Source of the DNA: Jiella pacifica
Lineage (GTDB): Bacteria > Pseudomonadota > Alphaproteobacteria > Rhizobiales > Rhizobiaceae
Reading direction: 5' to 3'
Assembly (NCBI RefSeq): GCF_010500815.1
Contig: NZ_JAAAMG010000015.1
Location: 1 to 64,000 of the forward strand
Length of the DNA stretch: 64,000 nt
The translations under genes and the position numbers were made by a program. Under the pieces are notes generated by a model. The model was not told the origin of the DNA. It was given only the letters and a program-made list of their open reading frames with translations, and made no database searches. Positions 15,879-63,699 of the stretch are shown one piece after another. Every line of letters starts with the position of its first letter. The first letter of the stretch is position 1.

Positions 15879-16856
15879 TCACATCCCGCTGTCGATATCG
15901 GCGACGAGCCGTTCGCGGAGCGCCGTCGAAACGATCGGCCGTTCGCCGAACCAGCGTTCGAAGCCGGGCACCGCCTGATGAAGGAGCATGCCGAGCCCGT
16001 CGGCAAAGCGCAGTCCCCGCGCCTCGGCCGCCTTCAGCGTCGGCGTCATCAGCGGCGTATAGACGATGTCGGTCACCATCGCCCGGTCCGGCAAGGCCGA
16101 CAGATCCGGCAGCTTCTCCGGGAACCAGGCGGGCGTCTCGTCGTCGGGGTCCTTTTCCGGGATCGGCACGGTGTTGACCAGAAGATCGGCCCGCGCCAGC
16201 ATCTTCCCGCGCGCCTCTTCCCCATGGCCGACGACGCGGCCGGGAAACAGGCGGTCGAACCGCTCGGCGAGATCCTCGGCCTTCGAGGTGGTGCGGTTGA
16301 CAATCTCGACGCACTTTACCCCGCGCGAAAGAAGCGCATGGACGACCGCCCGCGCCGCGCCGCCGGCGCCGAGCACCACCGCCGTTTCTGCCTCCGCCCA
16401 GCCGGCGAGCCGCTCGTCGAGATTGGCGGCAAATCCATGGGCGTCGGTGTTGCCGCCGACGAGACGGCCGTCTTCGAACCACAGCGTGTTGACCGCGCCG
16501 ATCGCCTCGGCCTCGCCGTCCCGCCGGCCGACGGCGCGAAAGGCCGCGACCTTGTGCGGGATCGTCACGTTGCCGCCGACGAAACCCTTCTGCCCGAGGG
16601 TTTCGAAAAACTCGCCGATCTCCTCCGGCGGCACCCCCATGCGGACATAGGAACCGGCAAGGCCGAGTTCCTTCAGCCAGGTCCCGTGGATCAAGGGCGA
16701 GCGGGAATGCCAGACCGGCCAGCCGGTGATGAAGGCTTTAGGCCCGTCGACCATCGCCGGACGGTGGTTCGGATCGAAGATCGAGCCCTCGCCGCGCGGC
16801 CGCGTCGCGCCGCTGACATAGGGCTCGGGCGTCCATTCGCCGTTTTCCTCAGCCAT
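15879..16856 (-). CDS. aroE: shikimate dehydrogenase
   Basis: A 325-residue enzyme that reduces 3-dehydroshikimate with NADPH in aromatic amino acid synthesis. Seen: HSRSPLIHG (shikimate binding), GNVTIPHK with the catalytic Lys, NTDAHGF with the catalytic Asp, and the NADP fold [17 protein letters not shown]. It carries about 40 extra residues before the conserved [12 protein letters not shown]. The long start at 16856 is nevertheless favoured by a strong AGGGGGGAA ribosome binding site and an 8-base overlap with maf; ATG 16754 is the alternative. Confidence 0.93.
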
Positions 16857-17448
16857 CGATTTCCCCCCTCGTTCTCAATTCCTGCAACAGCGGCAGGATC
16901 GGCAGGCCGATGATGGTGAAGTAGTCGCCATCGATCGCCTCCATCAGCTGCACGCCCTCGCGCTCGATCTGATAGGCGCCGACGCTGGTCAAGGCCCGTC
17001 CCCCCACCCCGGCGAGATAGCGCCCGATGAAGCCTGGATCGAGTTCGCGCATGGTGATCCGCGCGACGGCGACGTGGCGCCAGACGACGATGCCGTTCTC
17101 GACCAGGACGACGGCGCTGTTCAGGGTGTGCGTGCGCCCCGACAGCGACAGGAGCGTGCGCCGCGCCTCCTCCATGTTGGCCGGCTTGTGGAACACGCGG
17201 TCGCCCAGCGCCAGGGTCTGATCGGCGCCGATGACGATTTCGTCCGGATGGTTTTCCGAAACGTTCGTCGCCTTCGCCTCGGCCAGCACCGAGGCGACGT
17301 CTTCGGGCGTCGCGCCGCTGCCGAGAAGCGGCGCCTCGAGCGAGCGCTCGTCGAGCTCGGCCGGGCGGACGGTGAAGTCGACGCCGGCATTTTTCAGAAG
17401 TTCGCGGCGGTGGACGCTGCCGGAGGCGAGGACGATGCCTTTGGCCAT
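16849..17448 (-). CDS. maf: Maf-family nucleotide pyrophosphatase
   Basis: A 199-residue Maf protein, a house-cleaning pyrophosphatase acting on non-canonical or modified nucleotides. The N-terminal signature [12 protein letters not shown] is at residues 7-18, followed by the catalytic-base segment [16 protein letters not shown]. The frame is open upstream for 50 codons, but ATG 17448 gives the normal family start. It is the first gene of maf-aroE-NTF2-like-coaE, reading away from the putative oriC and hemE, a conserved origin-side arrangement in alphaproteobacteria. Confidence 0.9.
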
Positions 17449-17984
17449 GAATGGGAACCTTTTTAGTAAAATCTTCATCGATCCGGTGTTTGATAGCGTC
17501 ATGCCCGCTCCGACCCAAGTGGGGCAGGATTCGATTCGCCCGGCCAAGGCAAGCGGCCAAGGGCGATTCACCCGGGATTCTTGCCACCCTGTGGGCAAGG
17601 CCGGGGTAACCAGGCATGGCCTGCGCCGCCGCAGCCGGGCCTGTTCATGGAACTGTCATTTATCCACATTTTGCGGCGCCGGCCCCCATGTGGACGGCTC
17701 TCCGCGAATCTGTGGCGAAGTGCCGTCAAGTCGGTGACGGAAACGAGTCGATCATCCCTCGTGAGCGCACACCGTGCGCCAGCGGCAAGTCGTTTGAGAG
17801 ACTGGCGAATTGCCGTTCGTCCCCGATTCTCTCCGCCTGCCATCGATCGCCCTGGCGGGGCCGTTCGGCCGAACCCTCCAATTCGGCAGGAAATTGGCGT
17901 GGGATGTGAATCCCGGCTATCCACCGACTCATAGAATCATAAATCTCATTTCAAAGAGATTCTTGAAGATTTGGGAGAAAGCCG
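17449..17984. other. oriC: putative chromosomal origin of replication (oriC)
   Basis: The 536-base gap between maf and hemE. A perfect DnaA box TTATCCACA lies at 17660-17668, and weaker 7-of-9 boxes at 17590-17598, 17711-17719 and 17917-17925. I count eleven GANTC sites (CcrM methylation sites) between 17528 and 17962, against one or two expected by chance. An A/T-rich tract at about 17930-17975, the possible unwinding element, ends at the hemE ribosome binding site. Experimentally mapped origins of Caulobacter and Sinorhizobium lie next to hemE. Function here is inferred. Confidence 0.75.
17660..17668 (+). promoter_or_regulatory. consensus DnaA box
   Basis: TTATCCACA is identical to the strongest bacterial DnaA box, inside the maf-hemE gap. 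It is the only perfect copy noticed in this gap. Confidence 0.75.
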
Positions 17985-19007
17985 GTGACGGAACAGCGCA
18001 AGCTCATGAGGGTGCTCCAGGGAGAGACCGTGTTTCCTCCCCCGGTATGGCTGATGCGCCAGGCGGGCCGGTATCTTCCCGAATATCGCGAGACACGGTC
18101 GAAGGCCGGCGGCTTCCTCGAACTGTGCTACGATCCGGACTTCGCGACCGAAGTCACCTTGCAGCCGATCCGCCGGTTCGGCTTCGACGCGGCGATCCTG
18201 TTTTCGGACATCCTGGTCATTCCCGACGCCCTCGATCGCGGGCTTCACTTCGTCGCCGGCGAGGGGCCGAAGCTGACGCCGCTGCGCGAGGACGAGGTGG
18301 CAGGCCTCGATCCGACCCGGGCCGAGACCCATCTCGCGCCTGTGATCGCAACGGTGGCGAGACTGCGCGAGGAGCTTCCCGACGAGACGACGCTGATCGG
18401 CTTTTGCGGCGCGCCCTTCACGGTCGCGACCTACATGATCGCCGGCCACGGCACGCCCGACCAGGCGCCGGCGCGGCTGTTCGGCTATCGCCACCCCGAA
18501 GCGATGGAAAGGCTGCTGTATCTCCTCGCCGAGATGAGCGCCGACTACCTGATTCGCCAGCTCACCGCCGGGGCCGACTGCGTCCAGATCTTCGATTCCT
18601 GGGCCGGCGTTCTCGACGAGGCCTGTTTCGAGTCCTATGCGATCGGCCCGGTCCGCCGCATGGTCGAGAAGATCCGCGCCGCCAAACCCGACGCCAAGAT
18701 CATCGGCTTCGCCAAGGGCGCCGGGGCATTTCTCGAAACCTACCGGCAAAAGACCGGCGTCGATGCCGTCGGCCTCGACTGGCAGGTGCCGATGGATTTC
18801 GCCCGCAAACTCCAGACGGAGGGCGCGGTCCAGGGCAATCTCGATCCGCTGCGGCTGATCGCCGGCGGCAGGGCGCTGGACGAGGGCGTCGACCGGATCC
18901 TTCAAAATCTGGGGCAAGGCCCGCTGATCTTCAATCTCGGCCACGGCATTACGCCCGATGCGCCGCTCGAGCATGTCGAGGCGCTGCTGAAGCGGATCCG
19001 GGGATGA
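17985..19007 (+). CDS. hemE: uroporphyrinogen III decarboxylase
   Basis: A 340-residue cytoplasmic enzyme that removes four carboxyl groups from uroporphyrinogen III to give coproporphyrinogen III in haem synthesis. The N-terminal signature [15 protein letters not shown] (about 21-35) carries the substrate-binding arginines, and [14 protein letters not shown] and [12 protein letters not shown] are further family blocks. The start is GTG 17985, preceded by GGGAG. It is immediately right of the putative oriC and is followed by hemJ, the next but one haem step. Confidence 0.95.
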
Positions 19008-55329: not shown

Positions 55330-56769
55330 ATGCATTCCGACACCATTGCCGCCCTTTCTTCCGGCGCGCTGCCCTCGGGCGTCGCGGTCGTCCGGGTCAG
55401 CGGGCCGGACGCGAGCGGAGCTTTGACGCGGCTCTGCGGCGGGGTCCCGCCGGAGCGGCGGGCTAGCCTTCGCACCTTCAGGGACGCGGCCGGCGCCGTC
55501 ATCGATCGCGGCATCGCGATCTTCTTTCCCGGACCGGCGACCGTCACCGGCGAGGACATCGCCGAGTTCCACCTCCATGGCGGCCCGGCCGTCGTTACCG
55601 CCTGCCTCCAGGCGATCACCGCGGCCGTCGGCACGCGCCTCGCCGAGGCCGGAGAATTCACCCGGCGATCCTTCGAGAACGGCCGCGTCGACCTCACCGA
55701 GGCCGAGGGCCTCGGCGATCTCATCGCCGCCGAGACGGAAGGCCAGCACCGGGCGGCGGTCCTTCAGGCCGGCGGCGCGCTACGGATACTCTACGAAGGT
55801 TGGATGGCTCGTCTCACCCAGGCGCGGGCACATCTCGAAGCCTCCTTCGACTTTTCCGACGAAGGCGACGTCAGCGAGGACGTCGCCGACACGGTGAGGG
55901 ACGAGGTCGCCGAAATCGTCGCCGAGATCCGCGCCCATCTCGCCCGCGCCGATCGCGGCGAGATCCTGCGCTCCGGCTACAAGGTGGCGATCGTCGGGGC
56001 GCCCAATGCCGGCAAGTCGAGCCTCCTCAACGCGCTCGCCGACCGGGAGGTGGCGATCGTCACCGAGGTTCCCGGCACCACCCGCGACGTCATCGAGGCG
56101 ACGCTCGACCTTTCCGGCATCCCGGTGCGGTTTTCCGACACGGCCGGCATCCGCGAGACCTCGGACAGGGTCGAGGCGATCGGCGTCGAGCGGGCCCGCG
56201 AGGTGATGGCTAAGGCCGACCTCGTCCTCGCCCTCGTCGATCCCCAGCAGGGCCACGGGCCGCTGGCGCGCTTCACCGAGCTTCTGTCTCACGTGAAACA
56301 TCCGATGATGCTGGCCGCCGACGCCTCGCTCGAAGACCTCGCCGAGGGCACAGCCAGGGGCCGCCGGCGCATCCTCACCGTCCGCACCAAGGCCGACCAG
56401 CCGGCGCCGAGCGGGCTGACCGCCCGCTTCGGCAACGAATGGACCGATTTCCGCTTCGACTTCACGGTGTCGGCGAAGACCGGCGCGGGGCTCGACACCT
56501 TGACACAGCGGATCGCCGAACTCGCCGCGGCGGCTGCCGGTGTCGACGGCGGCGGTGAGGTGGCCATCCCGCTGCGCACTCGCCAGCGCGACCTCGTCAC
56601 CGAGACCCTGCATGTCCTCGAAGAGTTCATCGGCAATTCGGCGTTGCCGGCGGAGGTCGGCGCCGAAACCCTGCGCCGAGCCTCGGACACGCTCGGCCGG
56701 CTCACCGGCAAGGTCGGCGTCGAAGACCTCCTCGACGTGATCTTCTCGCAGTTCTGCATCGGCAAGTGA
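55330..56769 (+). CDS. mnmE: tRNA modification GTPase MnmE
   Basis: A 479-residue GTPase that with MnmG adds the 5-carboxymethylaminomethyl group to wobble uridine. The N-terminal tetrahydrofolate-binding domain (TIAALSSGALPSGVAVVRVS) is followed by the G domain with the P-loop GAPNAGKSSLLNAL near residue 223 and the C-terminal motif FCIGK with the catalytic Cys. It is longer than the usual 450 residues. AAGGA precedes ATG 55330. A parS-like sequence lies in it (56285-56300). mnmG is 2.3 kb downstream, with chaC and a Uma2-family gene in between. Confidence 0.94.
   Translation: MHSDTIAALSSGALPSGVAVVRVSGPDASGALTRLCGGVPPERRASLRTFRDAAGAVIDRGIAIFFPGPATVTGEDIAEFHLHGGPAVVTACLQAITAAVGTRLAEAGEFTRRSFENGRVDLTEAEGLGDLIAAETEGQHRAAVLQAGGALRILYEGWMARLTQARAHLEASFDFSDEGDVSEDVADTVRDEVAEIVAEIRAHLARADRGEILRSGYKVAIVGAPNAGKSSLLNALADREVAIVTEVPGTTRDVIEATLDLSGIPVRFSDTAGIRETSDRVEAIGVERAREVMAKADLVLALVDPQQGHGPLARFTELLSHVKHPMMLAADASLEDLAEGTARGRRRILTVRTKADQPAPSGLTARFGNEWTDFRFDFTVSAKTGAGLDTLTQRIAELAAAAAGVDGGGEVAIPLRTRQRDLVTETLHVLEEFIGNSALPAEVGAETLRRASDTLGRLTGKVGVEDLLDVIFSQFCIGK
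56285..56300. promoter_or_regulatory. parS-like site 4
   Basis: TGTCTCACGTGAAACA, 15 of 16 bases of the parS consensus, inside mnmE, where it encodes LSHVKH. Confidence 0.8.
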
Positions 56770-59052: not shown

Positions 59053-60960
59053 ATGACCGCCACCCGCGCCCCCTCCCCTGTCCCGGCCGCCATGCCCGCT
59101 CGCGCCGACGTGGTCGTGGTCGGCGGCGGGCATGCCGGCTGCGAGGCCGCCAGCGCCGCGGCGCGGGCCGGCGCGAACACGGTCCTCGTCACCCATCGCT
59201 TCGACACGATCGGCGCGATGAGCTGCAACCCTGCCATCGGCGGCATCGGCAAGGGCCATCTGGTGCGTGAGATCGACGCCCTCGGCGGGCTGATGGGCCT
59301 TGCCGCCGACCGTGGCGGCATCCAGTTCCGCATGCTCAACCGGAGCAAGGGCCCGGCCGTCTGGGGCCCGCGCACCCAGGCCGACCGCAAGCTCTACCGC
59401 GCCGCCATGCAGGGCCTGATCCGGGAGACGGAGGGGCTGACGGTGGTCGAGGGCGACGTCTTCGATCTCAAGCTTGATGCCTCCGGCGCCGTCTCGGGCA
59501 TCGTATTTGCCGACGGCCGAAGCATCGCCTGTCGCGCCGTGGTGCTGACCACCGGCACGTTTCTCGGTGGGCTGATCCATATCGGCGATCGACAGATTCC
59601 CGCCGGCCGGATGGGCGAGGATCCCTCGCTGGGCCTTTCGGGCACGCTGCGCCGCCTTGGCCTGTCGCTGGGACGTCTGAAGACCGGGACGCCGGCCAGG
59701 CTCGACGGCCGGACGATCGACTGGGCGAGCCTCGACAGCCAGAAGCCGGACGAGGAGCCGGTGCCCTTCTCCTTCCTGACGGATCGCATCGACAATCCGC
59801 AAATCGACTGCGGCATCACCCGCACGACGCCCGAGACCCACGCGATCATCCGCGACAATCTCGCCCGCTCGGCGCTCTATTCGGGCAAGATCGAGGGTGT
59901 CGGGCCGCGCTATTGCCCGTCGATCGAGGACAAGATCGTCAAGTTCGGCGACCGCGACGGCCACCAGATCTTCCTCGAACCGGAAGGGCTCGACGACGAC
60001 ACCGTCTATCCGAACGGCCTGTCGACCTCTCTCCCGGAAGAAGTGCAGGACGCCTTCCTCCGCTCGATTCCCGGGCTCGAAAAGGTGGCGATCCTGAAGC
60101 CCGGCTACGCCATCGAGTACGACCATGTCGATCCGCGCGAGCTCGACCGGGCGCTTGCCGTCCGCAAGGCGCCGGGGCTTTTCCTCGCCGGCCAGATCAA
60201 CGGCACCACCGGCTACGAGGAGGCCGGCGCGCAAGGGCTCGTCGCCGGGCTGAACGCAGCCCGCCTCGCCGGTGGATCGGAGCCGGTCGTTCTCGGCCGC
60301 GCCGACGCCTATATCGGCGTGATGATCGACGACCTGACGCGCACCGGCGTCACCGAGCCCTATCGCATGTTCACCTCCAGGGCGGAGTTCCGCCTGTCGC
60401 TCAGGGCCGACAATGCCGACCGGCGGCTGACGCCGCTGGCGACGGAACTCGGCATCGTCTCCGCCGATCGGGCCGAGCGCTTCTCCCGTGCCGAAGCTGC
60501 CTTCCTGGCGGCCCGAGCGGCGCTGGAAGCGGCGAAGCTCACTCCGTCCGAGGCGGGCCGGCACGGCATCGCCGTCAATCAGGACGGCCGGCGGCGGAGC
60601 GCCTGGCAGTTGCTCGCCCAGAGCGCCATCGAGCCGGACCGGCTGGTCGCGGTGTTTCCCGAACTCGCCGCCATCGACGAAAAGACCTTTGCGCGAGCGC
60701 GGATCGAGGCGGGCTACGACGTCTATCTCGATCGCCAGAAGAAGGATCAGGAGCGGCTGCGGAAGGACGAGGCGCGCGAAATCCCGGTCGATCTCGATTA
60801 CACCGGCATTCCGGGGCTCTCCAACGAGCTACGCCAGAAGCTGACGGCCCGGCGCCCTGGCAACGTCGCCGAGGCCGAACGCATCGACGGGATGACGCCG
60901 GCAGCGCTTGCCCTCGTCCTTCTCGCCATCCGCCGGAGTTCACTCGCCGATGCGGCGTGA
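59053..60960 (+). CDS. mnmG: tRNA uridine-5-carboxymethylaminomethyl modification enzyme MnmG
   Basis: A 635-residue FAD enzyme, partner of MnmE. Seen are the FAD motif [20 protein letters not shown] at residues 20-39, the family signatures [20 protein letters not shown] and [12 protein letters not shown], the [19 protein letters not shown] block and the C-terminal IPGLS helix region. It heads mnmG-rsmG-parA-parB, the conserved alphaproteobacterial partition operon. Confidence 0.96.
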
Positions 60961-61744
60961 TCGCTCGGGCCGCTCGCGTCCTGTGACCGGCGAGCCATCG
61001 AACCGGGCGACGCGGCCCGACGGCCGCAACTCCGTCGACCGATCCGTTACGAGCGCCTCGCCAGCCGCCTCCGATGCGCGGCCCCCGAAGCCGCTGGATC
61101 TTGAGAATATTGCACTGCAACAAGCTGCCGGCCGCGCGTGGCTCATCGACCATTACGCCGTTTCACGTGAAACGCTGGCGCGGCTCGACGCCTATGTGGC
61201 GATGCTGACCGACTGGCAGACGCGGATGAACCTCGTCGCGCCTTCGACGCTCGGCGACGTCTGGCGGCGGCACGTCGCCGACTCGCTCAGTCTCGAACGG
61301 CTGCTGCCGGAGTTTTCGCAGGCGGTCGATCTCGGCTCGGGTGGCGGCCTGCCCGCCCTCGTCATCGCGGCCTGCCGGCCGGAGAGCGCTGTCGACATGG
61401 TGGAGTCGAGCCGCAAGAAGGCGGCCTTTCTGGCGGCCGCGCGGACGGAAATGGGCGTCATGGGTACGGTCCATCCGGTACGGATCGAGACGGCCGGTCA
61501 AGTTCTCGGCCGGGCCGAGGTCGTCACCGCCCGCGCATTGGCGTCGCTGGACGATCTCCTGGCCATGGTCGCACCGCATATTTCACGTGAAACACGGTGC
61601 TTCTTTCAAAAGGGGCGCAGTCATGAACAGGAAATAGCGGCCGCGACTGCCAATTGGCGATTCACCATGATAATTCATGAATCACAGGTGGAGGCTGATT
61701 CGGTCATCCTCGAGGTCGCCGCCATCGCGCGGCGCCAAGGCTGA
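60950..61744 (+). CDS. rsmG: 16S rRNA (guanine-N7) methyltransferase RsmG
   Basis: A 264-residue SAM methyltransferase acting on G527 of 16S rRNA. Motif I is [16 protein letters not shown], and [20 protein letters not shown] is the family signature. About 60 extra residues precede the usual start; ATG 60950 overlaps the mnmG stop by eleven bases. Two parS-like sites lie in its coding region, encoding VSRET and ISRET. Confidence 0.93.
61159..61174. promoter_or_regulatory. parS-like site 5
   Basis: CGTTTCACGTGAAACG, a perfect 16-base palindrome with 14 of 16 bases of the parS consensus, inside rsmG. Confidence 0.85.
61579..61594. promoter_or_regulatory. parS-like site 6
   Basis: TATTTCACGTGAAACA, 15 of 16 bases of the parS consensus, inside rsmG, 420 bases after site 5. 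Confidence 0.85.
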
Positions 61745-61837
61745 GACGGCCCTGCCGACGGGCGATGTCGCCATTCCCGACCTGCGGCGGGCGGGGGTGA
61801 CCGATGCCGACACCTCAAAAGACTTGGAATTCAGCCG

Positions 61838-62641
61838 ATGGACGTGGCGGAGCCTATGCGGATCATCACGATCGCCAACCAGAAGGGCGGTGTCGGCAAG
61901 ACGACCACCGCCATCAATCTCGCCACTGCGCTCGCCGCGGTGGACAAGCGCGCCCTCCTGATCGATCTCGATCCCCAGGGCAACGCCTCGACCGGGCTTG
62001 GCATCGACAAGGAAGATCGCGAACTCTCCTCCTACGACGTCCTGAAGGAAGACGCTTCGATCAGTCAGGCGGCGATGCGGACGGCCGTGCCGAACCTGTC
62101 GATCATTCCCTCGACCATGGATCTTCTTGGCCTGGAGACGGAGATATCCGGCATCCACGGGCGGGCCTACCGGCTGCGCGACGCGCTGCATTTCCATCAG
62201 CAGGAAGGCGCCGATTACGACTTCGTTCTGGTCGACTGCCCGCCCTCGCTCAACATCTTGACCATCAATGCCATGGCCGCCGCCGATGCCGTCCTGGTGC
62301 CGCTGCAATGCGAGTTCTTCGCCCTCGAAGGCCTGTCGCAGCTCTTGCAGACGGTGGAGCAGGTGCGCGACAGCCTCAATCCGATGCTCGGCCTGCACGG
62401 CATCGTCCTGACCATGTATGACAGCCGCAACAATCTCGCCGCCCAGGTGGTCCGGGACGTCCGCTCCTATATGGGCGAGCATGTCTACGACACGGTGATC
62501 CCGCGCAACGTCCGGATCTCCGAGGCGCCTTCCTATGGGAAGCCGGCGATCCTCTACGACCTCAAATGCCCCGGCAGCCAGGCCTATATCCAGCTCGCCT
62601 CCGAGGTGATCCGGCGCGAGGAAAGGCTCGTCGCCGCGTGA
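61838..62641 (+). CDS. parA: chromosome partition ATPase ParA
   Basis: A 267-residue Walker-type ATPase that moves ParB-parS complexes along the nucleoid. The deviant Walker A is NQKGGVGKTTT (residues 14-24), and the second conserved segments are LIDLDPQGNASTGLG and VLVDCPPSLNILTINA. ATG 61856 (MRIITIANQ) is a possible alternative start. It is 93 bases after rsmG and 74 bases before parB. Confidence 0.96.
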   Translation: MDVAEPMRIITIANQKGGVGKTTTAINLATALAAVDKRALLIDLDPQGNASTGLGIDKEDRELSSYDVLKEDASISQAAMRTAVPNLSIIPSTMDLLGLETEISGIHGRAYRLRDALHFHQQEGADYDFVLVDCPPSLNILTINAMAAADAVLVPLQCEFFALEGLSQLLQTVEQVRDSLNPMLGLHGIVLTMYDSRNNLAAQVVRDVRSYMGEHVYDTVIPRNVRISEAPSYGKPAILYDLKCPGSQAYIQLASEVIRREERLVAA

Positions 62642-62715
62642 GCCGGACGGACGGGACGGGGACGGGCGGCGAAGCGACGAACAAGGCGGTGCAGACGGAA
62701 GATGGGAAGAGGCCA

Positions 62716-63699
62716 ATGACCGAAGACAGATCGCGCCAGAGACTGGGACGAGGCCTCGCCTCGCTGATCGGCGGCGGCGCCTCCGGCCCGTCCCGCCCGG
62801 TCCCGGGCTTCGATCCGCAGCCGGCTACTCCCTCCGTGGCGCCCGAGCGGTCGGTGCCGATCGCCAGCATCACCCCCAATCCGCACAATCCGCGGCGCTA
62901 TTTCCGCGAGGACGAGCTTGCCGAGCTCGCCGCCTCGATCCGCCAGCACGGCGTCGTCCAGCCGCTTCTGGTGCGCCCGCTCGGCAGCGACAGGAGCCGG
63001 TTCGAGCTCGTCGCCGGTGAGCGCCGCCTGCGCGCGGCCATCCTGGCTGGGCTATCCGAGGTTCCGGTGGTCCTGCGGGAGCTGAACGACCGCCAGTCGC
63101 TCGAAATCGCCATCATCGAGAACGTCCAGCGCGCCGATCTCAACGCCATCGAGGAGGCGCTCGGCTATCAGTCGCTGATCGACGAGCACGGCTATACCCA
63201 GGCCGATCTCGCCGAGATCCTCGCCAAGAGCCGCAGCCACGTCGCCAACACGCTGCGGCTGTTGAAGTTGCCGCCCGAGGTGCGGGCGATGGTCGAGGAG
63301 GGCGTCCTTTCGGCGGGTGCCGCCCGAACGGTGGTCACCGCCGACGATCCGGTGACGCTGGCAAAGCGCATCGCCTCGGAGAACCTGTCGGTGCGTGAGG
63401 CCGAGGCGCTGGCGCGCGATCCGGCGGCGGCCGAGGAAACGCCGAAGCAGGCGGCCCGCCGCCGCGGCCGCAAATCGGCCGAGACCGCCGAAGAACCCAA
63501 GAGCGAGGCGATCCTCGGCTATGAGCGCCGGCTCCGCGAGGCGACCGGCTTCGACGTGTCGATCGTCGTTTCCGGCGGCCGGCCGGTGGTCCAGTTCGAT
63601 CTCGACCGGGAGGCCGATCTGGAGGGGCTCGTTCGGCGCCTCGAGAATCAGGGCGGCTATACGGCGGGGTTCACCAGCCCGCGTTTGCGCTCGCTCTGA
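62716..63699 (+). CDS. parB: chromosome partition protein ParB
   Basis: A 327-residue CTP-dependent DNA clamp that loads at parS. The N-terminal RLGRGLASLIGGG contacts ParA; the ParB/Srx domain carries GERRLRAAILAGL and the CTP-site NVQRADLNAIEEA; the helix-turn-helix that reads parS is around YTQADLAEILAKSRSHVAN; the C-terminal dimerisation domain ends in RLENQGGYTAGF. ATG 62716 with AAGAGG upstream is the family start; GTG 62638, overlapping parA, is less likely. Confidence 0.96.
   Translation: MTEDRSRQRLGRGLASLIGGGASGPSRPVPGFDPQPATPSVAPERSVPIASITPNPHNPRRYFREDELAELAASIRQHGVVQPLLVRPLGSDRSRFELVAGERRLRAAILAGLSEVPVVLRELNDRQSLEIAIIENVQRADLNAIEEALGYQSLIDEHGYTQADLAEILAKSRSHVANTLRLLKLPPEVRAMVEEGVLSAGAARTVVTADDPVTLAKRIASENLSVREAEALARDPAAAEETPKQAARRRGRKSAETAEEPKSEAILGYERRLREATGFDVSIVVSGGRPVVQFDLDREADLEGLVRRLENQGGYTAGFTSPRLRSL

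Follow-up and report, generated by a model that had tools for sequence, protein, structure and literature searches.

Chromosomal origins of the hemE type that carry few strong DnaA boxes are hard to read. The locus described here raises two questions: whether the gap between maf and hemE in Jiella pacifica is the chromosomal origin, as a preliminary description had proposed, and which of its elements DnaA would use to open the DNA. The window, by which we mean the whole 64,000-nucleotide stretch analysed, is the first 64 kb of contig C7 (142,446 bp) in a 74-contig draft assembly.

The gap between maf and hemE

The genes are arranged in the order coaE-aroE-maf on the minus strand, the gap, and then hemE and a UPF0093 (hemJ-like) gene on the plus strand. 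HemE is 94% identical to the protein of Jiella avicenniae and 93% to that of J. pelagia, and maf matches NCBIfam PRK02478 with 313 bits (cut-off 269). The gap is an intergenic region that adjoins hemE, as in hemE-type alphaproteobacterial origins; the origin of S. meliloti also lies beside hemE. For C. crescentus an origin at this position is established (PMC1914354), as the preliminary description had stated. The other neighbour is maf and not the COG1806/DUF299 gene of the hemE type, and the gene opposite hemE is described as differing among alphaproteobacterial origins (PMC1914354). In Rhizobiaceae-type loci (L046–L050 and L099–L108) maf and hemE are 1,233–1,296 bp apart, versus about 535 bp, a distance that would fit an extra gene, perhaps ppsR/DUF299, between them. 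The flanking genes and the features of the gap upstream and downstream of its conserved core are as follows.

16849–17448, minus strand: maf, left flank of the candidate origin (Pfam Maf, 2.4e-46, scored on a longer open reading frame)
17449–17984, no strand: maf-to-hemE intergenic gap, 536 bp, the candidate oriC region (GANTC count, Jiella loci, alignment)
17463–17477, plus strand: degenerate CtrA-like site TTAGTAAAATCTTCA, two mismatches to TTAA-N7-TTAA; several relatives match more closely
17528–17537, no strand: tandem GATTC-GATTC, kept as GGAYTCGATTC (GANTC scan, alignment)
17565–17580, no strand: two GATTC sites, the second inside a conserved GATTC block (GANTC scan, alignment)
17590–17598, minus strand: weak DnaA box TTGCCCACA, its CTGTG part conserved (box scan, alignment)
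17660–17668, plus strand: perfect DnaA box TTATCCACA, of which relatives keep only the TCC/CA part well (box scan, alignment)
17706–17719, minus strand: GAATC touching weak DnaA box TTCGCCACA (GANTC and box scans, alignment)
17745–17749, no strand: GAGTC (a GANTC site), conserved no further than the nearest relative (GANTC scan, alignment)
17825–17829, no strand: GATTC (a GANTC site), poorly conserved (GANTC scan, alignment)
17944–17984, plus strand: A/T-rich tract with GATTC at 17958, the presumed unwinding zone, reaching the hemE start (composition, GANTC scan)
17985–19007, plus strand: hemE, right flank (TIGR01464, 401 bits, cut-off 303)

All features listed in the preliminary description, namely one perfect and three weak DnaA boxes, 11 GANTC sites and an A/T-rich tract, were found where it had placed them. 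The box at 17660 is the sole perfect one in the 64-kb window. Allowing up to one mismatch gave two boxes in the window, which is not above the number in shuffled sequences (mean 2.6). Allowing up to two mismatches added weaker boxes at 17590 (minus), 17711 (minus) and 17917 (plus) inside the gap, which thus holds several boxes, one perfect and three with two mismatches; the shuffle mean was 0.83, and 4 of 300 shuffles reached four. The A+T fraction is 0.53–0.66 over approximately 17889–17984, and 0.28–0.43 in most of the remaining gap, but 0.55 at its maf end. The best match to the CtrA motif TTAA-N7-TTAA in the gap has two mismatches; CtrA sites are known from Caulobacter, and some predicted alphaproteobacterial origins are described without them (PMC1914354). 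Several relatives have a CtrA-like TTAA-N7-TTYA beside the maf start, degenerate in the window at 17463–17477. The scan for IHF sites gave nothing convincing, with a single site at one mismatch, and Rfam gave no match at the gathering threshold within the window.

GANTC density, conservation and methylation

The 11 GANTC sites span 17528–17962. Dinucleotide shuffles of the gap contained 3.2 sites on average and 2 of 5000 shuffles reached 11, so the density is above chance, as had been noted; GANTC is moreover depleted across the window (111 found, 386 expected), which makes the excess over the local density larger than previously stated. The gap holds the densest 435-bp stretch in all three sets of DNA examined: 11 sites in the 142-kb contig, where every other such stretch has at most 5, 10 in J. 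pelagia (next 7 in 1.6 Mb) and 8 in A. manganoxydans (next 6 in 0.8 Mb).

We collected maf-hemE gaps from 110 loci, 15 of which have no maf and hence no gap (L020, L024, L051, L057, L064, L066, L067, L073, L075, L079–L082, L088 and L091); 95 gaps remain, including 13 exact repeats of another and L083, which is the window itself. The gap is present in 43 of 45 Aurantimonadaceae-type loci (L003–L045, L056 and L058), and these 43 gaps contain 4–13 GANTC sites, or 7.4–24.4 per kb, compared with 0.33–2.32 per kb elsewhere in the same loci. Its size is 533–537 bp in the seven loci named Jiella, a count that leaves out an eighth Jiella record (an L005-like Aurantimonas sp.). Alignment of the window with 18 chosen gaps from relatives revealed conserved blocks at the tandem GGAYTCGATTC, at GATTC followed by CTGTG, within the perfect box (its TCC/CA part) and, most strongly, at 17905–17939 (TGTGRATYCCGGCTATCCACCGACTCWWAGAATCA). 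Several GANTC sites hold the same alignment position across genera.

The genome encodes GcrA and, on contig C9, a CcrM whose best NCBIfam match (NF050803, 635 bits) is under the cut-off of 830 bits. An excess of methylase sites and a gene for the cognate methylase are thus both present, as would be the case at an origin controlled by CcrM in a Dam/SeqA-like manner. The published account for Caulobacter reports GANTC in the origin and extra chromosome copies upon CcrM overexpression, but also normal DNA content in C. crescentus without CcrM, and its authors state that CcrM is not required for the control of initiation (PMC3973325). In A. tumefaciens, depletion or overexpression of CcrM is reported to alter ori2 but not the DnaA-dependent ori1 (PMC11514494). 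Since the findings in both Caulobacter and Agrobacterium argue against it, our analysis does not support methylation control of initiation at this locus, which the preliminary description had suggested, despite the presence of the CcrM and GcrA genes.

There is a serious possibility, only somewhat short of even, that the GANTC cluster does not act in initiation and is a pile-up of a site that genes avoid, or serves another use; this would be compatible with the gap being the origin. It would be in line with Ensifer, where intergenic DNA is reported to have roughly double the GANTC frequency of genes (PMC8725594), and with the normal DNA content of C. crescentus without CcrM (PMC3973325) and the indifference of Agrobacterium ori1 to the CcrM level (PMC11514494). 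However, no other 435-bp stretch in the three sets of DNA matches the count, and several of the sites keep their alignment position across genera.

A conserved core upstream of hemE

The most strongly conserved block belongs to a candidate origin core with the following parts.

17905–17943, plus strand: conserved origin core (alignment, motif searches in family genomes, base counts)
17908–17916, plus strand: W-box-like GAATCCCGG, overlapping the GANTC at 17908–17912 (consensus comparison)
17917–17925, plus strand: core DnaA box CTATCCACC, two mismatches (box scan)
17926–17931, plus strand: spacer GACTCA holding the CcrM site GACTC (GANTC scan)
17932–17943, plus strand: four trinucleotides TAG-AAT-CAT-AAA with the middle A on the box strand; GANTC at 17934–17938 (trinucleotide scan)

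By eye, GAATCCCGG has one mismatch to KMRTCCCSM, the consensus quoted in the literature for the W-box of C. crescentus. We searched 151 genomes of the family with a strict 15-base core motif, CACMGASTCWWAGAA, and found it in 67 of them, once in each. In all but one of these 67 (the exception being G098) it lies on the same strand as hemE and upstream of it, at a distance of 48–180 bp (median 57) from where the HemE match begins, while the backward control gave 6 matches in total in the 151 genomes. The strict core is missing from 84 of the 151 genomes; 146 have a HemE match and 5 are without one. A looser motif, ACMGANTCWNAGAA, was found in 133 of the 151 genomes, with about 55 matches to its backward control; among the 150 matches listed, 98 of 110 genomes had the motif upstream of hemE and 12 did not, and 52 matches lay away from hemE. 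Our claim that the core is linked to hemE therefore rests on the strict motif and not on the looser one. The site of a general promoter or regulator would not be expected about once per genome, although the core may still act as a promoter for hemE. The core is the new element found here, the location of the gap beside hemE being ordinary, and it bears out the earlier suggestion of a possible departure from known architectures.

In several Aureimonas loci (L027–L029, L031, L032, L034–L038 and L041) the core, with 2–4 mismatches, lies 199–265 bp before the HemE match, versus about 80 bp, with added sequence between core and hemE. Outside the family, a GANTC near a box or spacer before hemE was seen by eye in L254, L268, L269, L273 and L274.

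Three-base rhythm after the core box

Counting from the core GANTC, adenine is present at +6 in 98%, at +9 in 98% and at +12 in 96% of 48 distinct cores, and at +15 in only 15%. These cores come from 78 of 96 gaps (window included); they are related sequences and not independent, and the anchor of the count already demands GANTC, A/T at +1 and A at +3. Among the other positions, +4 is G in 94%, +5 is A in 96% and +11 is A in 81%, and the rest are variable. A series of four trinucleotides after the box would give such a rhythm. We scanned the last 300 bp of 44 Aurantimonadaceae-type gaps, the window among them, for trinucleotides following a box with up to two mismatches. At least four A-centred trinucleotides followed the box in 27 of the 44 gaps, compared with 0.5% of shuffles, and at least three in 29 (3.3% of shuffles); in class-wide loci, at least three were present in 16 of 30 (12.7% of shuffles). 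Canonical trios were not clearly enriched in either set, with at least three in 4 of the 44 gaps (4.0% of shuffles) and in 6 of the 30 class-wide loci (10.7%). CTA/TAC repeats occur before hemE in some of the 30 class-wide loci, for example L248; CTA repeats fit both trio rules in different frames, so that the class-wide count cannot cleanly separate the rules.

The basal unwinding system (BUS) is described as a DnaA box, a spacer of up to 16 bp and at least three 3'-NAN-5' trios; the DnaA-trios belong to the strand complementary to the box strand, and in the scaffolds used this trio strand is a 5' tail; its authors suspected that deviant trios exist (PMC8287927). The H. pylori trio reads 5'-CTA-3' on the complementary strand (PMC8235120), and that of C. 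difficile is given as CACCTACTACTATTACTACTATGA (PMC7561715). In the window, CTATCCACC is a box within two mismatches, and the spacer is 6 bp to the A-centred run or 2 bp to a canonical pair, both within the 16-bp limit. Opposite the box strand there are two trios instead of at least three, and the run of four is on the box strand. We rejected this run as canonical BUS trios, the published polarity being the opposite. The core is thus like a BUS in layout, as far as its sequence goes, and we do not class it as one.

It is unlikely that the core is an ordinary BUS with a degenerate canonical 3'-GAT-5' DnaA-trio. The two-mismatch box and the short spacer do satisfy the published search rule (PMC8287927), but two canonical trinucleotides follow the box, runs of at least three occur in 4 of 44 gaps, near the shuffle rate of 4%, and residue 187 of DnaA is Trp instead of Asn.

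In B. subtilis DnaA, the residue touching the trio's middle adenine is Asn187, with Ile190 and Ile193 on either side of the third base, and none of these residues is described as universally conserved (PMC10721633). B. subtilis DnaA with the substitution I190A, which concerns binding of single-stranded DNA, is reported to fail to unwind (PMC8287927). We aligned 33 of 34 DnaA loci to 8btg_A, which recovered the published residues E183, N187, I190, I193, N196, R202 and E228. All four Aurantimonadaceae DnaAs, from J. pacifica itself (L001), J. pelagia, A. manganoxydans and F. pelagi (the last three being L117–L119), have Trp187 and Ala190. Among the 29 class-wide DnaAs, position 187 is Tyr, Phe or His and position 190 is Ile or Val; the 30 class-wide DnaA loci are a biased choice, being the best Pfam scorers of 142 genomes, and their genomes mostly differ from those of the hemE loci. 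Trp187 and Ala190 would fit a DnaA that does not read the canonical trio but something else, as a correlation in few and partly selected sequences.

A possible recoded opening element and a proposed mechanism

We tentatively consider the run to be recoded, with adenines on the box strand and thymines on the other, the strand gripped by B. subtilis DnaA, a possibility that we would sooner doubt than assert. The joint reading, that Aurantimonadaceae and much of Rhizobiaceae use such a recoded opening element, with DnaA altered to match and a CcrM site that may be sensitive to methylation, is likewise conjectural; its least likely part is the methylation sensitivity through the CcrM site in the spacer. 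New here are a CcrM site placed between the box and the trinucleotides, a run whose base pattern is inverted, and the changes at two DnaA residues. In the mechanism proposed for the origin, DnaA would first load at 17660, the perfect box, and at the weak boxes, and then on the sites at 17908–17925. From CTATCCACC it would extend over the 6-nt spacer onto the four trinucleotides at 17932–17943, and the A/T-rich DNA would open towards hemE. We infer from this arrangement that DnaA may read the trinucleotides and that opening would begin there. The GANTC sites, including the one in the spacer, would become hemimethylated at each firing if CcrM methylates them. A delay of DnaA reloading by hemimethylation is speculation, to which the published work in two relatives lends no support.

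If the trinucleotide run is what DnaA grips, the locus offers a natural test of the recoding of a BUS together with its DnaA, and the GANTC in the spacer allows the methylation question to be asked with one base pair.

Position of the gap relative to GC skew and parS

We sampled the complete chromosome of J. pelagia in 80 stretches of 20 kb (1.6 Mb) and that of A. manganoxydans in 40 stretches (0.8 Mb). In J. pelagia, the lowest cumulative GC skew follows the 2.09–2.11 Mb sample, and the curve rises from the next sample, which holds hemE (2,169,596). The motif GGGNAGGG, which we take to be the polar octamer guiding FtsK, is mostly on the minus strand and then mostly on the plus strand, with the flip between 2.18 and 2.23 Mb. 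Skew and octamer polarity hence both flip within 2.11–2.23 Mb, with hemE at 2.1696 Mb. The A. manganoxydans samples have negative skew as far as 4.15 Mb, a value of +0.005 for the stretch that holds hemE (4,157,046) and positive skew from 4.17 Mb, and the two signals flip within 4.13–4.17 Mb, with hemE at 4.157 Mb. dnaA and hemE are approximately 1.0 Mb apart in J. pelagia; in A. manganoxydans the distance is about 0.45 Mb. The skew of the relatives supports the neighbourhood of hemE at a resolution of tens of kb, and within this area the GANTC cluster and the core single out the gap.

On the J. pacifica contig itself, the cumulative skew minimum lies near 64 kb, about 46 kb from hemE, and the DNA to the left of hemE is weakly G-rich and not C-rich. 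This end of the window has the following features.

56285–56300, minus strand: parS-like site, one mismatch (parS scan)
59053–63699, plus strand: gidA-gidB-parA-parB block, which both A. manganoxydans and J. pelagia have close to hemE-hemJ (parA called from ATPase similarity and position, with NCBIfam matches under the cut-off)
61579–61594, minus strand: parS-like site, one mismatch, beside gidB/parA (parS scan)

The genome has three parS-like sites with up to one mismatch, all on C7 (at 56.3, 61.6 and 68.5 kb), and the two found in J. pelagia lie about 3 and 9 kb beyond the end of hemE. A second, smaller GANTC cluster at 61280–61701 (five sites within 435 bp, sharing second rank on the contig) adjoins a parS-like site and the start of parA.

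Downstream of the hemJ-like gene of A. manganoxydans, the gidA, gidB, parA and parB block begins within approximately 3 kb; in the window this block begins at 55 kb. In neither A. manganoxydans nor J. pelagia does the 20–54 kb segment of the window lie at the place after hemJ; the counterpart of its ATP-synthase part is at 3.30 Mb in A. manganoxydans, and the rest falls mostly outside the samples. This block (19.9–54.4 kb), which stands between hemE-hemJ and gidAB-parAB, carries genes of metabolism and transport (ATP synthase, ethanolamine ammonia-lyase, dihydroxy-acid dehydratase and TctA/TctC). Its left end after hemJ is common to 4 of 10 compared loci (L003, L005, L007 and L008), which makes an assembly error unlikely. 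The relocation of this block can account for the rightward shift of the skew minimum on the contig. An inversion in the contig was considered and dropped, A. manganoxydans being collinear with the window. It is J. pelagia in which gidAB-parAB (54.5–63.7 kb in the window) is inverted, at 2,171,412–2,181,054. The skew of the draft neither proves nor refutes an origin on the hemE side. The refuting outcome named in the preliminary description, a skew minimum away from the gap, is formally present on the contig itself, for which the relocated block offers a possible explanation; the skew of the relatives favours the hemE area.

It is improbable that the core is a promoter or regulatory region of hemE, controlled for instance by GcrA/CcrM, and that the true origin is at gidA-parAB (55–64 kb): the skew minimum near 64 kb, the two parS-like sites and five-site GANTC cluster there and the presence of a GcrA gene would agree with this. 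In A. manganoxydans and J. pelagia, hemE and gidA-parAB are so close together that skew cannot separate them. However, it is beside hemE that GANTC is densest and that the core lies, a general regulator's site is not expected about once per genome, and the 20–54 kb of DNA between the two blocks is out of place relative to these relatives.

Taken together, the skew flips in relatives, the highest GANTC density, the conservation and the hemE-linked core lead us to read the maf-hemE gap as very probably the DnaA-dependent chromosomal origin, as the preliminary description had placed it, with the skew minimum of the contig as a point against it.

Significance and comparison with known origins

A 15-base core that stands near hemE and occurs a single time per genome carrying it would be useful for locating origins in Rhizobiaceae-type drafts, whose skew may be misleading, as it is on the contig studied here. 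In the literature searched, which takes in a minority of subscription papers, "DnaA-trio" and "GANTC" never appeared together; hemE, oriC and GANTC together matched a single plant paper, in a search that did not tell hemE from heme.

Like Cori of C. crescentus, the gap lies directly beside hemE and combines an A/T-rich stretch with DnaA boxes and GANTC sites (PMC1914354, PMC3973325). It differs from Cori in having maf instead of COG1806/DUF299 as its other neighbour and no CtrA site with fewer than two mismatches. The BUS of B. subtilis oriC has the same elements in the same order, namely a box, a short spacer, at least three trinucleotides and A/T-rich DNA, whereas in Jiella the conserved adenines are on the box strand, the published 3'-GAT-5' trio being on the opposite strand, which would give 5'-CTA-3' downstream of the box, and a GANTC lies inside the spacer. 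E. coli oriC, which has TTATT-type single-strand sites, is under Dam/SeqA control and has dense GATC sites, a T-rich strand opposite the box strand and other neighbour genes. Dense methylation sites and a T-rich strand opposite the box strand are thus common to both origins, while the sites and methylase are GANTC and CcrM here and GATC and Dam in E. coli, and the neighbouring genes differ.
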